In this document: one piece after another, positions 1,385-27,065 of the stretch
Numbering within the stretch: the first letter of the stretch is position 1
Layout: the number at the start of each line of letters is the position of its first letter
Assembly (NCBI GenBank): GCA_944363035.1
Contig: CALVTS010000001.1
Location: forward strand, 190,691-254,690
Length of the DNA stretch: 64,000 bases
Direction of reading: 5' to 3'
Source of the DNA: an uncultured Clostridia bacterium
GTDB lineage: Bacteria > Bacillota > Clostridia > Christensenellales > CAG-917
Position numbers and translations under genes: made by a program
The notes under the pieces: generated by a model
What the model saw: the letters and a program-made list of their open reading frames with translations, nothing else
Database searches by the model: none
What the model was told of the DNA's origin: nothing

Positions 1385-1735
1385 TGTTGTCCCCCCTCCT
1401 CCCCTTCGGGACTCCTCCCCCACTCGGAATAGAGTTCGCTCCTCCTAAAATGCGGGACTTACTTTTTCATAAAGGCGTAAATCGTGCCTTTATGAAAACA
1501 CCTCTTGAAAAAAGTTTGAGTCTCACACTCACATAATCAAGCGGATACCAGTACTTACCGAACATCGCTCGCGGGGCGAGGAGGGCGACTCGACGCGCAC
1601 CGAGCCCGTGTCTACTTAATTTTTCGTCTAGCTTGCGAGATCGCAGATACGCGCCGCGACTTGCAAGAGCGGGCGCAAACGCCCGCTGTGCAAGTTTGGC
1701 TGAGCGGCGCGTAGTTCCGTCTCCGCATAAGTGTA
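1385..1735 (+). repeat. Type I hairpin cassette, copy A
   Basis: About 350 bp shared with 26140-26492 (same strand) and 3258-3590 (opposite strand). Landmarks in order are CTCCCCTTCGGGACTCCTCC, a CATAAAGGC/GCCTTTATG hairpin at about 1470-1495, CACTCACATAATCAAGCGGA, GGCGACTCGACGCGCACC, and a three-tier hairpin at 1651-1710. In that hairpin GCGCCGC pairs GCGGCGC, ACTTGCA pairs TGCAAGT and GCGGGCG pairs CGCCCGC. There is no coding capacity with recognisable homology. The unit ends near the first RAYT-type palindrome. Confidence 0.8.
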
Positions 1736-1819
1736 CGTTGGAATCAAACACACTCCCAATAATTTCCCTACGCCCTTTCGGCGCCGCCCCGCCTCTTATA
1801 TCGACTCCCCTCTTTCCAA

Positions 1820-1890
1820 TTTGGACACATGGGGACGTGTTTATTTTGTCCATTTTTTGGACATTTTAAACACGTCCCCATGTGTCCAAA
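1820..1890. repeat. 71-bp palindrome, copy 1 (REP-like)
   Basis: Perfect 24-bp arms, 1820-1843 and 1867-1890, enclose an inner hairpin TGTCCA-TTTTT-TGGACA with symmetric TTT internal loops. The arm core reads ACACATGGGG here. It is one of two copies spaced about 180 bp apart upstream of the RAYT gene. Confidence 0.9.
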
Positions 1891-2070
1891 ATCGCAATAT
1901 AAATCGCTATCTTTCACTTCTTCATCTTTCCCTCTTTTCCCCTCTCCCCTTTTCTTCCTTATTTCGTCATTTTTCCTCAAAATCCCCACCAAACAGTATC
2001 ATTTCTCATCCCCTCCTCTCCCCCGTTTCCCCCCTCTTCACCCTCTCCATATCGACCTCCATCTTTCCAA

Positions 2071-2141
2071 TTTGGACACTTGGGGACGTGTTTATTTTGT
2101 CCATTTTTTGGACATTTTAAACACGTCCCCAAGTGTCCAAA
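2071..2141. repeat. 71-bp palindrome, copy 2 (REP-like)
   Basis: Same structure as the copy at 1820, but the arm core is ACACTTGGGG with the matching change CCCCAAGTGT on the other arm, so pairing is kept. It ends 5 bp before the -35 box of the transposase promoter. Confidence 0.9.
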
Positions 2142-2146
2142 ATCGC

Positions 2147-2175
2147 TTGACTTTTTTAGATTTATCGCTTATACT
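2147..2175 (+). promoter_or_regulatory. Promoter of the RAYT gene
   Basis: TTGACT (2147-2152), a 17-bp spacer and TATACT (2170-2175). The -35 box begins just after the second palindrome, so a hairpin or bound protein there could affect transcription. The leader is about 20 nt with GAGGTGG before the ATG. Confidence 0.75.
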
Positions 2176-2202
2176 CAACTCATCAAATCTCCGAGGTGGA
2201 CC

Positions 2203-2973
2203 ATGCCCCGTATCTCCCGCAAAGACAACTCTTCACCCTATCTCCATGTCGTCGTCCAAGGCATCGGCAAGGAAAGCATCTTTGCCACAAATTCCCTTAA
2301 ATCCGCCTATCTTGACGACCTCGCGCGCTTCAAAGACGACTACGACGTCAAGATCATCACCTATTGCATCATGAGCAACCACGCCCACATCCTCCTGCGC
2401 ACCCCCTCCGTCGAGGCGGTGATCGCCTTCATGCACCGCGTCAACACCCGCTTCGCCGGCTGGTACAACAAGGTCAACGACCGCGTGGGCTACGTCTTCC
2501 GCAACCGCTATCTCAGCCAGCCCATCTTTGACGACCGTTATGTCATAAACTGCCTGGTGTACATCCACAACAACCCCGTAAAGGTCGGTTTGGTGCAAAA
2601 CGCGGCGGATTACCTATTCTCGGGGTTGCGCTGTTATCTGGATGGCGAAGGCATTGTCGATCTCGATTGCGCCGCCGAGCTTTTTGACGTCTCTCCCCAA
2701 AACCTCCTCGCGATAATGTCCGAAAAGTCCGAGCACGAGGACGGGCTCTGCCCCATCTGGCTGGATCACAAGGAGAGCCCCGCCGCCCGCGACGCTGGCA
2801 TCGCCAACATCCTCAAAAACGCCCGTTGCAACCTTTCCGTCATCAAGCACGACAAAGAGGAGCTCTGCCGCATCATCGACATCTTGCGCGAGAACAACAT
2901 CACCCTCGCCGAAGCCGCGCGACACCTCGGCATCTCCCGCAGCACCATCTACAACGCCCTCACCGGCAAGTGA
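2203..2973 (+). CDS. REP-associated tyrosine transposase (RAYT, Y1_Tnp family)
   Basis: A 256-residue HUH single-strand transposase of the IS200-like Y1 family. The HUH motif is MSNHAHILL at about residues 58-66, and a likely catalytic Tyr lies in the RFAGWYNKV segment some 30 residues later. A conserved YIHNNPVKVG block follows. The C-terminal 40 residues form a helix-turn-helix (EAARHLGISRSTIYNAL), an extension common in RAYTs. The start is ATG 2203: GAGGTGG sits 4 bp upstream, and upstream in-frame ATGs lie inside the palindrome. Two 71-bp palindromes precede it and a third and fourth lie at 14180 and 14413. RAYTs are known in other bacteria to be tied to dispersed palindromic repeats; that it acts on these ones is inferred from position. 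Confidence 0.92.
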   Translation: MPRISRKDNSSPYLHVVVQGIGKESIFATNSLKSAYLDDLARFKDDYDVKIITYCIMSNHAHILLRTPSVEAVIAFMHRVNTRFAGWYNKVNDRVGYVFRNRYLSQPIFDDRYVINCLVYIHNNPVKVGLVQNAADYLFSGLRCYLDGEGIVDLDCAAELFDVSPQNLLAIMSEKSEHEDGLCPIWLDHKESPAARDAGIANILKNARCNLSVIKHDKEELCRIIDILRENNITLAEAARHLGISRSTIYNALTGK

Positions 2974-2983
2974 CCCCCCCCTT

Positions 2984-3251
2984 CGGAGCGTGCTTGAACT
3001 TTACGCACACTTATTCGGGGTGGAGCCTGACTCCCACGTATACTTATTCGGACTGTGTTTGATTTCCACGTACACTTATTCGGAGTGCAACCTGAACTTT
3101 ACGTCTCTTTTTCGGAGACGTGTTTGAACTCCACGTAAACTTATTCGGAGTGGAGCCTGACTTCCACGTAAACTCATTCGAAGCGTGCTTGATTCCCACG
3201 TGAACTTATTCTGGGCGTGTTTGAACTCCACGTTAACTTATTCGAAGACGA
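2984..3251 (+). repeat. Array of ~32-bp repeats (8 units)
   Basis: Eight degenerate head-to-tail units of 32-33 bp. Each starts with TTCGGAG or a close variant and ends with a CCACGTAnACTTA-type tail. Units differ by several bases in the middle. The same unit occurs at 7966-8082, 15083-15120, 15553-15690, 26050-26120, 26500-26580 and 26660-26735. It follows the RAYT stop by 10 bp. Confidence 0.85.
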
Positions 3252-3257
3252 TTTCAC

Positions 3258-3590
3258 GCGCCGCTCAGCCAAACTTGCACAGCGGGCGTTTGCGCCCGCT
3301 CTTGCAAGTCGCGGCGCGTATCTGCGATCTCGCAAGCTAGACGAATAATTAAGTAGACACGGGCTCGGTGCGCGTCGAGTCGCCCTCCTCGCCCCGCGAG
3401 CGACGTTTAGTCTATACTGGTCGCCGCTTGATTATGTGAGTGCGAGATTCAAACTTTTTTCAAGAGGTGTTTTCATAAAGGCGCAATCTGCGCCTTTATG
3501 AAAAAGTATATCCCGCATTTTAGGAGGAATGAACTCTATTCCGAGTGGGGGAGGAGTCCCGAAGGGGAGGAGGGGGTACAATATTACCAT
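3258..3590 (-). repeat. Type I hairpin cassette, copy B
   Basis: Inverted relative to copies A and D. The three-tier hairpin is at 3258-3317, followed by the GCGAGATCGCAGA and GGCGACTCGACG landmarks read in reverse. A near-perfect hairpin (TTCATAAAGGCGCA / TGCGCCTTTATGAA) lies at about 3472-3505. The G-rich end (GGGGAGGAGTCCCGAAGGGG) lies near 3545-3575. Confidence 0.8.
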
Positions 3591-3646
3591 GCTAGGGGAC
3601 GTAAACCCCTTTTAACCAGCCTGAATACGATGAAGAACAAGGAAAA

Positions 3647-3743: not shown

Positions 3744-3782
3744 GTTGACGCAGTTATTCGCCCTTTCCAAACGCCAATCCGC

Positions 3783-3906
3783 TGAAAGGCGTCATTTGGA
3801 TGAAGAGCGCGAAAAAGCCTCTGCCGAGAGGCGGAGCTTACTTGATCGTAAGTGAGCATCTACGGCAGAGGCTTTGACAAAGCTATTCGCCAAATGACGC
3901 CTTTCA
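3783..3906 (-). repeat. Nested palindrome, stop-proximal family, copy a; likely terminator
   Basis: Outer arms of 17 bp (3783-3799 and 3890-3906) and inner arms GCCTCTGCCG/CGGCAGAGGC (3817-3826 and 3863-3872) are perfect complements. The apical stem is CTTAC-TTGATC-GTAAG. The right outer arm contains the TGA stop of the leftward acyl-CoA synthetase gene. Read on the - strand the inner stem is followed by TTTTTC, so this copy probably terminates that gene. Confidence 0.8.
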
Positions 3907-14627: not shown

Positions 14628-15075
14628 GGGGTACGTTCTCTAACAGGGAAGTATTGTTGCCCCCTTCCTGCGGGTTTCGTCGTGTTCAAGCACACTCTAT
14701 CATGCTGTACGTCTCGCGGGTGAATGTTGGCTCCCCCTCCAACCCGGGGACCCCACAAAATGCACGCATTTTGCGGGGAGCCCCATTCGGGCTTTCCTCC
14801 CCCGTGTCCGAACGAGTTCAGTCCTCGCATCATGCGGGACTGACTGTACATCTCTACAAAAGTTTTTTATATCGCACTCACATAATCAAGCGGAGACCTG
14901 CACTTGCTGATGACCCGGCACGGGAGGAGGAATTCGGCGCTCGCAAGTTAAAGCCCGTGTCTTTTTAGATTTACGGCGTTGCTCGGCACTCAGAGGGCGC
15001 GCCGCGACTTGCAAGAGCGGGCGCAAACGCCCGCTGTGCAAGTTTGGCTGAGCGGCGCGTGAGACCGTCTTCGAA
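14628..15075 (+). repeat. Diverged type I hairpin cassette, copy C
   Basis: It starts with the GGGGGTACGTTCTCTAAC and GTATTGTTGCCCCCTTCCTG block and contains CACTCACATAATCAAGCGGA as in the other type I copies. It ends with the three-tier hairpin at 14999-15058. The middle is diverged and holds an extra hairpin around GCACGCATTTTGCGGGG. One ~32-bp repeat unit follows at 15083-15120. Confidence 0.7.
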
Positions 15076-15133
15076 AAAGAGACGTGGGAGTCAAGCACAC
15101 TCCGAATAAGTGTACGTCGGGTTCGGGCTAGTT

Positions 15134-15552
15134 TAATGGGGGTTACCTCCCCTAACATGGGAGCATTGTTGCCCCCTTCCTGCGGGTTTCCCCCCAATTT
15201 ACCCCACCGAAAATACTTTCGGCGGGGACCCCGCTCGTTCCCCCTTAAAAGGGGACCCACCATTTTGGGGGAAACCTTCGGCGCGACGCGATTGACACTT
15301 CGCGTAACAATCGCTGGACCTGATGAGACGCGATTGACACTTCGCGTAACAATCGCTGGACCTTCGGTTCGGGCATGAGGGCTACCGAGGACGGCGCCTC
15401 TGCGGCGCCGCCATGTTATGCCGCTTGCAATGCGCCCGCTTCGCGAAGAGAGTGGCGCATTGCTGGCGCACTTTGCGTCTCGCCCTCGGCACTCACTTCG
15501 TCGCCGCCGACTTGCAAGAGGGCTACGCCCTGTGCAAGTTTGACTGGGCGGC
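15134..15552 (+). repeat. Type II hairpin cassette, copy 1
   Basis: It shares the opening block (CCTAACATGGGAGCATTGTT, then CCCCCTTCCTGCGGGTTTCC) with the type I cassettes, but the middle is different and matches 26737-27035. Structures include GCAATGCGCC/GGCGCATTGC (15427-15436 and 15454-15463) enclosing CTTCGCGAAG, and GGACGGCGCC/GGCGCCGCC. It ends in the three-tier hairpin at 15503-15552, here with a shortened inner stem GGGC/GCCC. Confidence 0.8.
15285..15362 (+). repeat. Two 36-bp direct repeats inside the type II cassette
   Basis: Identical 36-bp units at 15285-15320 and 15327-15362 are separated by TGATGA. Each contains GCGATTG and CAATCGC as hairpin arms. They are absent from the sister cassette at 26737-27035. 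Confidence 0.9.
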
Positions 15553-15690
15553 TCCACTCCGAATAAGTTCACGTCGTGTTCAAGGACGTCCCGAATAAGT
15601 ATACGTGGAGTTCAAACACCCCTCCGAATAAGTTTACGTGGGAGTCAAGCACGCTCCGAATAAGTGTGCGACAGGTTCGGAGATACCCTC
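15553..15690 (-). repeat. Array of ~32-bp repeats, inverted
   Basis: Four units read on the - strand (CTCCGAATAAGTnnACGT pattern on +). They directly follow the type II cassette. Confidence 0.8.
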
Positions 15691-15708: not shown

Positions 15709-15837
15709 TGAAAACGTCGCCATTTGGATGAAATGCAAGGAAAGTGCCTGCGGGATGGACAGGAGCGTACTTGGTCGTACGTGACTGTTCAGACCGCAGG
15801 CACTTGACACAGCAGTTCGCCAAATGGCGACGTTTTA
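15709..15837 (-). repeat. Nested palindrome, stop-proximal family, copy b
   Basis: Outer arms AAAACGTCGCCATTTGG (15711-15727) and its complement (15820-15836), and inner arms GTGCCTGCGG (15744-15753) and CCGCAGGCAC (15794-15803). The apical stem is CGTAC-TTGGTC-GTACG. The constant segments AAGGAAA and TTGACACAGCAGTTCG match the copies at 3647 and 3783. The right outer arm covers the TAA stop of the leftward MDR gene. Confidence 0.85.
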
Positions 15838-26081: not shown

Positions 26082-26139
26082 GAGTTTGAACTTTACGTTT
26101 CTTCCACTTCGAATAAGTTCACGTCGTGCTCGGGCTGAT

Positions 26140-26492
26140 TTAATGAAGTTTACGTCCCCTAACATGGAAGTATTGCTCCCCCTCCTCCCCTTCGGGACTC
26201 CTCCCCCACTCGAGATAGAGTTCATTCCTCCTAAAATGCGGGACTTACTTTTTCATAAAGGCGCAGTCTGCGCCTTTATGAAAACACCTCTTGAAAAAAG
26301 TTTGAATCTCGCACTCACATAATCAAGCGGATACCAGTATTGACTAAACGTCGCTCGCGGGGCGAGGAGGGCGACTCGACGCGCACCGAGCCCGTGTCTA
26401 CTTAATTTCTCGTCTAGCTTGCGAGATCGCAGATTCGCGCCGCGGCGTTCAAGAGGCGGCACGCCGCCTGTGAACGCTTGGCTGAGCGGCGC
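26140..26492 (+). repeat. Type I hairpin cassette, copy D
   Basis: Same landmarks as copy A in the same order: GTCCCCTAACATGGAAGTAT, CTCCCCTTCGGGACTCCTCC, the perfect CATAAAGGCGCA/TGCGCCTTTATG hairpin, CACTCACATAATCAAGCGGA and GGCGACTCGACGCGCACC. The final three-tier hairpin (26437-26492) has new stems: GCGTTCA/TGAACGC and GGCGGC/GCCGCC instead of ACTTGCA/TGCAAGT and GCGGGCG/CGCCCGC. The AGA and TG internal loops are kept. Confidence 0.85.
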
Positions 26493-26499
26493 GTGAGAC

Positions 26500-26580
26500 T
26501 GTCTTCGAAAAAGTATACGTGGGGTTCAAACACGTCTCCGATCCGAATAAGTTCACGTCGTGCTCGTAGACGCCCGTTCC
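26500..26580 (-). repeat. Partial array of ~32-bp repeats
   Basis: Two diverged inverted units follow the cassette hairpin, with CCGAATAAGTTCACGTCGTG as the clearest unit end. Confidence 0.65.
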
Positions 26581-26628
26581 AACGCTTGTCCCCTTGACGG
26601 CAGTATTTCAATTAAAAACAAGGGGTAG

Positions 26629-26702
26629 CCCCTGTTTACGGGGTTCCCGCCGTACACTCGTTCGGGGGTATATTTGACTCCCACGTATACTTATTCGTAG
26701 CG
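26629..26702 (+). repeat. 74-bp direct repeat, right copy
   Basis: Partner of 26008-26081. It leads straight into one more ~32-bp unit and the type II cassette. Confidence 0.88.
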
Positions 26703-26736
26703 TGTTTGAACCCCACGAACACTTATTCGGAGTGGA

Positions 26737-27035
26737 GCCGCCTAGCCAAACTTGCACAGCGGGCGTTTACGCCCGCTCTTGCAAGTCGGCGGCGACGAAG
26801 TGAGTGCCGAGGGCGAGACGTAAAGTGCGTCGGCAATGCGCCACTCTCTTCGCGAAGCGGGCGCATTGCAAGCGGCATAACATGGCGGCGCCGCAGAGGC
26901 GCCGTCCTCGGTAGCCCTCATGCCCGAGCGCCGAAGGTTTCCCCCAAAATGGTGGGTCCCCTTTTAAGGGGGAACGATTTTGGGGGAAACCCGCAGGAAG
27001 GGGGCAACAATATTTCCATGTTAGAGGAAGTATAC
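26737..27035 (-). repeat. Type II hairpin cassette, copy 2
   Basis: Reverse-complement homologue of 15134-15552 without the 36-bp tandem. The three-tier hairpin is at 26737-26793 (outer GCCGCC/GGCGGC). GCAATGCGCC/GGCGCATTGC arms lie at 26833-26842 and 26860-26869. The G-rich end (GTTTCCCCCAAAATGG, TGGGGGAAACCC) is at 26935-26990. Confidence 0.8.
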
Positions 27036-27065
27036 CCCGAAAACGTGAGCATCCACGACAAGTGT

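Follow-up and report, generated by a model that had tools for sequence, protein, structure and literature searches.

The window, by which we mean the whole stretch of 64,000 nucleotides analysed, contains six copies of a three-tier hairpin in both orientations, all of which had been located correctly by the earlier note. B-type copies lie at 1650..1711 on the forward strand (outer stem CGCGCCGC/GCGGCGCG, middle stem ACTTGCA/TGCAAGT, inner stem GCGGGCG/CGCCCGC), at 3257..3318 on the reverse strand with identical stems, and at 26436..26493 on the forward strand, where the middle stem is GCGTTCA/TGAACGC and the inner stem GGCGGC/GCCGCC. A further copy with a B outer stem (14998..15059, forward) terminates a B2-type cassette. 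The A-type outer stem, GCCGCC/GGCGGC, is found at 15503..15552 (forward) together with a short inner stem, GGGC/GCCC, and at 26737..26793 (reverse), where the middle stem is ACTTGCA and the inner stem GCGGGCG. A 20-nt pattern covering the 3' half (TGCAAGTTTGRCTRRGCGGC) matched six times in the window against 0.02 expected.

Each tested copy folds alike: a one-sided bulge separates the outer stem from a middle stem of 7 bp, and an AG/G internal loop separates this in turn from the inner stem. This bears out the architecture first described, with refinements to the bulge and the upper loop. The 3' one-sided bulge reads TTGRSTRR and measures about 7-8 nt, since its first T can pair. At the third position of the 5' loop, an A or C is paired with a T or G in most copies (A-T in 26 and C-G in eight of 39 distinct forms), five forms having C.T there; the upper internal loop is therefore AG/G. 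The two outer-stem types, CGCGCCGC/GCGGCGCG and GCCGCC/GGCGGC, stand in registers that are shifted relative to each other. Folding z-scores ranged from -3.8 to -5.8 as RNA and from -3.5 to -5.9 as DNA, on either strand. No U-tract follows the hairpin. A search of the window against Rfam returned no match at the gathering score and, below it, only hits of which none was convincing. A kink-turn was considered and rejected, as inspection by eye placed a GA pair beside the outer stem in B types and none in A types.

The hairpin closes one end of cassettes of approximately 300-450 nt that lack long ORFs. Three cassette interiors (A, B1 and B2) can be distinguished, and cassettes occur singly, in tandem (approximately 430-500 bp apart) or head-to-head (approximately 720 bp). 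In the window, a non-coding B cassette delimited by alignment occupies 1391..1711 (forward; left limit approximate) and contains the palindrome TTTTCATAAAGGCG..CGCCTTTATGAAAA, slightly imperfect there. Its reverse counterpart at 3257..3620 (right limit approximate) forms a 299-nt inverted repeat with 1468-1766. Between the two lies a gene for a RAYT-type Y1 transposase (2080..2973, forward; PF01797, E=2.7e-10), in which the ATG of the conserved protein is at about 2203, accompanied by two copies of a GGGGACG-type palindrome (1813..2146). A B2-type cassette at 14730..15059 is followed in tandem by an A cassette at 15129..15552 (both forward, left limits approximate). Finally, a B cassette at 26133..26493 (forward; left limit approximate) faces an A cassette at 26737..27058 (reverse; limit approximate), the latter beginning within a truncated hairpin of a second family that adjoins the mreB stop codon. 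Folding a consensus of 30 cassettes yielded one short covarying stem upstream in addition to the terminal hairpin; since only the latter was strongly structured, we rejected the idea of a larger structured RNA that spans the cassette.

Degenerate 32-bp repeats are found both on cassette flanks and within cassettes. An array of about eight lies beside the hairpin at 2982..3250 (reverse), a second lies outside the hairpin at 15559..15680 (forward), and the facing cassettes carry repeats outside the B hairpin at 26499..26566 (forward) and outside the A hairpin at 26662..26736 (reverse). Repeats of the exact type number 110 in the source genome and 0-5 elsewhere; similar repeats without the hairpin occur in one genome of another, related genus (G032, loci L069 and L077). 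The unit length approximates three helical turns, and the arrays are strongly amplified only in the source species. They may possibly provide a DNA-binding protein with an array of sites.

Whilst the six cassettes first noticed are all real, copies are far more numerous. A 16-nt tail pattern (YTTGRSTDDGCGGCKC) matched 77 times in the source genome (G000; 1.61 Mb in 30 contigs), at positions dispersed through the genome and in both orientations. The genus, Candidatus Limadaptatus, was described from chicken gut. Six congeners gave 63, 51, 39, 37, 24 and 18 matches and three further members of the genus 1, 0 and 0, against 0-4 for the reversed pattern, used as a control, across the ten genomes. 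A covariance model gave at least 80 matches in the source genome; 33 further genomes from the family yielded none. By our own estimate, stray pattern matches in unrelated phyla are about as many as chance would give. Carriage by viruses was rejected, the hairpin having no match in viral contigs. The earlier note had staked its structural reading on further covarying copies in related genomes; the hairpin was found in seven of the ten genomes of the genus, with coordinated stem changes and conserved asymmetric bulges.

The stems vary, but within narrow limits. Across species, the middle stem takes only three forms in 110 copies (ACTTGCA, ACTTTCA and GCGTTCA), the inner stem takes about seven main forms, and these forms are common to several species and cassette types. 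The replacement of whole stems with retention of pairing is thus real, although it amounts to a choice among few haplotypes, and because so few forms are exchanged among species and cassette types, few independent stem-change events can be counted. In a set of 39 distinct hairpins, pairing held in 95.7% of cells and 73 cells were altered on both sides (25 in shuffles). The covariation score was 0.216, whereas shuffles scored 0.056 and slid versions no more than 0.038. The count of further pair types was no higher than in shuffles, and that of doubly changed pairs was slightly above them (15 of 500 shuffles reached the observed number); the signal is therefore one of few states in coordination and not of many independent changes. 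Among 114 copies retrieved through the tail alone, 792 of 798 middle-stem pairs were Watson-Crick and six were not, and the bulge letters were almost fixed.

Such near-perfect pairing, with very few one-sided changes and few haplotypes, might also arise in a passive palindrome whose arms are copied by hairpin-templated repair or template switching, with no selection on the fold; DNA palindromes are prone to arm copying. Arm copying should, however, make the asymmetric features symmetrical, and the AG/G loop and the one-sided TTGRSTRR bulge are retained in nearly all copies across seven species. We consequently regard this explanation as rather improbable. The earlier proposal of a selected RNA or single-stranded DNA structure gains from the paired changes and the kept asymmetric bulges, and is weakened by the small number of independent events and by the recombination of stem forms from one cassette or species to another. 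RNA is not favoured over single-stranded DNA, given that the hairpin folds on both strands and that one-sided changes show no clear wobble preference. Assignment of a strand through G-U pairs was attempted and abandoned, since the one-sided changes were too few and their preference unclear.

Each stem form occurs with more than one interior. B1 interiors accompany the ACTTGCA, ACTTTCA and GCGTTCA middle stems in 35, six and eight cases respectively, B2 interiors in 19, one and seven, and A interiors in 20, five and none, from which it follows that stem modules recombine between cassettes. Nested insertions of other small hairpins additionally break up the cassettes. In one congener (G008) nearly every copy carries a TTTGGCTTT tail, a uniformity that is a sign of homogenisation within the species.

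We then consider the genes around the hairpins, as called by a home-made codon-usage caller in genome stretches surrounding the hits (the caller missed an aldo-keto reductase gene, but the region concerned would be classed alike with it). No copy that was examined lay inside a called gene. The 32 hairpin-bearing intergenic regions comprised 17 convergent, 14 co-directional and one divergent, whereas the 73 other intergenic regions included 13 convergent and 21 divergent. Convergent regions are thus enriched (17/32 versus 13/73; Fisher p = 4e-4) and divergent regions depleted (1/32 versus 21/73; Fisher p = 0.003). A separate, terminator-like hairpin often stands directly at the stop codon, ahead of the arrays and the cassette. 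Many contig ends fall in cassettes.

The strong preference for convergent gaps and near-absence from divergent ones, taken with a highly stable fold on both strands and paired stem changes, could indicate a 3'-end structure, formed by the hairpin or by the head-to-head pair, that is selected for a host function between convergent genes: stabilising RNA 3' ends, terminating transcription in both directions or blocking its passage. Against such a role, the hairpin has no U-tract, the stop codon often has its terminator-like hairpin already, and relatives possess short, ordinary terminators at cassette-matched sites. Furthermore, single cassettes between co-directional genes show no facing bias (3' and 5' ends at four loci each), and this placement bias is also reported for mobile REPs (PMC3733652). 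Overall, we consider a host 3'-end function unlikely.

Orthologous sites in relatives differ in their cassette content. The convergent mreB/aldo-keto reductase pair is kept in the source genome, G003, G006, G007 and G008. The gap between the genes measures 1103 bp in the source genome, with two cassettes, and 758 bp in G008, with one; in G003, G006 and G007 it holds no hairpin and measures 244, 245 and 334 bp. Similarly, the gap between the RAYT gene and the AMP-ligase gene is about 930 bp in the source genome, and is short in G005 and G009, where it contains an ordinary terminator. From sequence comparison, these differences in length look like a pattern of insertion and turnover. MreB is 93% identical to that of the source in the filled G008 and 73-80% identical in the species with unoccupied sites, a distance at which loss or replacement is not always distinguishable from insertion. 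The sites compared revealed neither a target-site duplication nor a clean insertion boundary, and no parent transposon was found for the A and B ends, though these bear related inverted hairpins.

MITEs and small mosaic repeats of the Correia, RUP and BOX type are non-autonomous, non-coding, intergenic, nested or mosaic and genus-specific. The present cassettes share each of these traits; they are also multi-copy, and their orthologous sites are found both filled and unoccupied, as for MITEs. They differ in that neither terminal inverted repeats belonging to a known transposon nor a target duplication were found, and in that their hairpin end is modular.

The one local candidate for the mobilising enzyme is the RAYT in the window, where two three-tier hairpins flank the gene in inverted orientation. 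Y1 transposase/RAYT genes were present in six of the seven hairpin-bearing genomes and in none of the three hairpin-free genomes, as would be expected of a true RAYT/REP system in which a single Y1 transposase mobilises the hairpins. Conversely, G007 possesses hairpins with no RAYT match, and the gene resides at one syntenic locus in six species, bounded in those examined by its own GGGGACG..CGTCCCC-type palindromes; three-tier hairpins flank it only in the source genome, none being present in the stretches read at the other five loci. No conserved GTAG or CGTC tag was found in the hairpin flanks examined, GTAG being confined to a subset of copies reading GCGTAGTTCC. We find such a system very unlikely and rejected the local RAYT as partner despite its co-occurrence: because it is flanked by different palindromes, which also border it in relatives and are candidates for its own REP, it is probably not the enzyme that serves the hairpin.

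Other enzymes fared no better. Reverse transcriptase (PF00078) was rejected as a mover, as it occurs in the source genome and in none of the other six hairpin-bearing genomes. The attC site of integrons is a folded single-strand site whose stem varies in sequence whilst its unpaired features are conserved (PMC2727003), and the present element resembles it in these respects. Non-coding cassettes, tandem arrays and hairpins with asymmetric unpaired bases would suit an integron integrase moving cassettes through a folded bottom strand. The R-box core (GTT/AAC) is, however, not shared by all copies (those of the GCGTTCA type read CGCTTGG, CGCTTGGCTGA, at that position), no integron integrase (TIGR02249) scored over the cut-off in the ten genomes of the genus, hits below it occurring in all control genomes too, and copies are dispersed in both orientations instead of occupying one platform. 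We rejected identity with attC on the missing integrase and core motif and judge an integron-like system exceedingly improbable. The ends of IS200/IS605 elements likewise carry subterminal hairpins read as single-stranded DNA; in contrast, no TnpA gene lies between the paired ends described here, and the Y1 genes at the syntenic locus are RAYT-like and unlinked to the three-tier hairpins.

The closest likeness is to REP and BIME elements. REP stems vary through complementary mutations that preserve the palindrome (PMC2817692), REPs may require an internal bulge (PMC8266576), and they sit mainly between convergent and co-directional genes (PMC3733652). The present hairpin is similarly a high-copy, extragenic palindrome with compensated stem variation, a retained bulge, convergent or co-directional placement and paired inverted copies. 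The earlier statement that it matches no family therefore holds for its sequence, which has no Rfam match, and not for its kind, its traits being those of REP elements. It looks like a genus-specific variant of REP-type palindromic repeats and, we infer, works like one. Nevertheless, it is about 60 nt long with three tiers (REPs are 20-50 nt), has no conserved GTAG/CGTC tag, belongs to a 300-450 nt cassette with 32-bp arrays alongside, on both sides, which is atypical of REPs, and differs from the palindromes that accompany the local RAYT. The REP families known to carry a tag are, moreover, mainly proteobacterial. As size, tag and cassette context differ and no RAYT is linked, we do not file the element as a REP.

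On balance, we consider it somewhat probable that the hairpin is the structured end of non-autonomous, non-coding intergenic cassettes, REP/BIME- or MITE-like, whose fold is recognised in trans. One strand would fold whilst single-stranded, the lagging-strand template being one possible setting, and a DNA-processing protein acting in trans would read the fold plus its unpaired bases, so that stem sequences might drift or be exchanged provided that pairing persists. Copies would spread, become alike through gene conversion and persist chiefly in convergent gaps, where they would do least harm. The few stem haplotypes count against this explanation, as the covariation rests on few independent events, and so does the finding that no transposase is linked to the element. 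A more specific possibility, which we put forward only tentatively, is a class of single-strand-hairpin mobile cassettes outside RAYT, IS605 and integrons, in which a putative enzyme would recognise the three-tier fold together with its unpaired bases, accept a small choice of interchangeable stems and carry non-coding cassettes into 32-bp arrays between convergent genes.

In this uncultured gut genus, many gaps between convergent genes are filled by the cassettes, which also break the assemblies. If a mobilising enzyme does recognise the fold, the few interchangeable stems and fixed unpaired bases constitute natural variants with which to test how single-stranded DNA is recognised by its structure in systems other than integrons and RAYTs. 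Should the fold instead act in RNA, it would represent a genus-shared 3'-end module, undescribed as far as our searches show.

Several other palindromes and repeats were observed. Those flanking the RAYT (L183, L184, L185, L187 and L189) share the GGGGACG..CGTCCCC core and differ between species in their outer stems; a fixed RAYT locus with species-variable palindromes offers a natural series in which to follow how RAYTs and REPs co-evolve in Clostridia. A palindrome, TTTTCATAAAGGCGC..GCGCCTTTATGAAAA, is present in B1 cassettes (window 1464-1498, 3470-3504 and 26250-26284) and missing from B2 cassettes, and its place is taken by an unrelated palindrome, TTTACCAAAATTTTTGGTAA, in several G008 copies (L155, L158 and L160). 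A small hairpin insert, GACGCGATTG..CAATCGCTGGACCTTCGGTT, is tandemly duplicated at 15285-15363 of the window; its position in the cassette varies (L174, L175, L177 and L178) and its inner stem is exchanged between species (ACACTTCGCGT versus GCGCGGAGCGC). B cassettes also carry a homopyrimidine mirror repeat, CCCCCTCCTC..CTCCTCCCCC in B1 (for example at window 1391-1421) and CCCCCTCCTT..TTCCTCCCCC in a B2 cassette (L130), such that both mirror halves change together; triplex-forming DNA is a possible interpretation.

A second family of hairpins begins at or near gene stop codons. Eighteen were found, including those at 3775-3906 and 15711-15836 of the window and at loci L031, L033, L034, L038, L043, L047, L048, L054, L056, L057, L058, L061, L122, L123 and L133. 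Each combines a variable outer stem, starting near TGA/TAA, with a terminator-like inner stem and a fixed internal loop, in which CTTTGTCA faces TTTCGCG. The outer stems vary by gene, yet largely pair.
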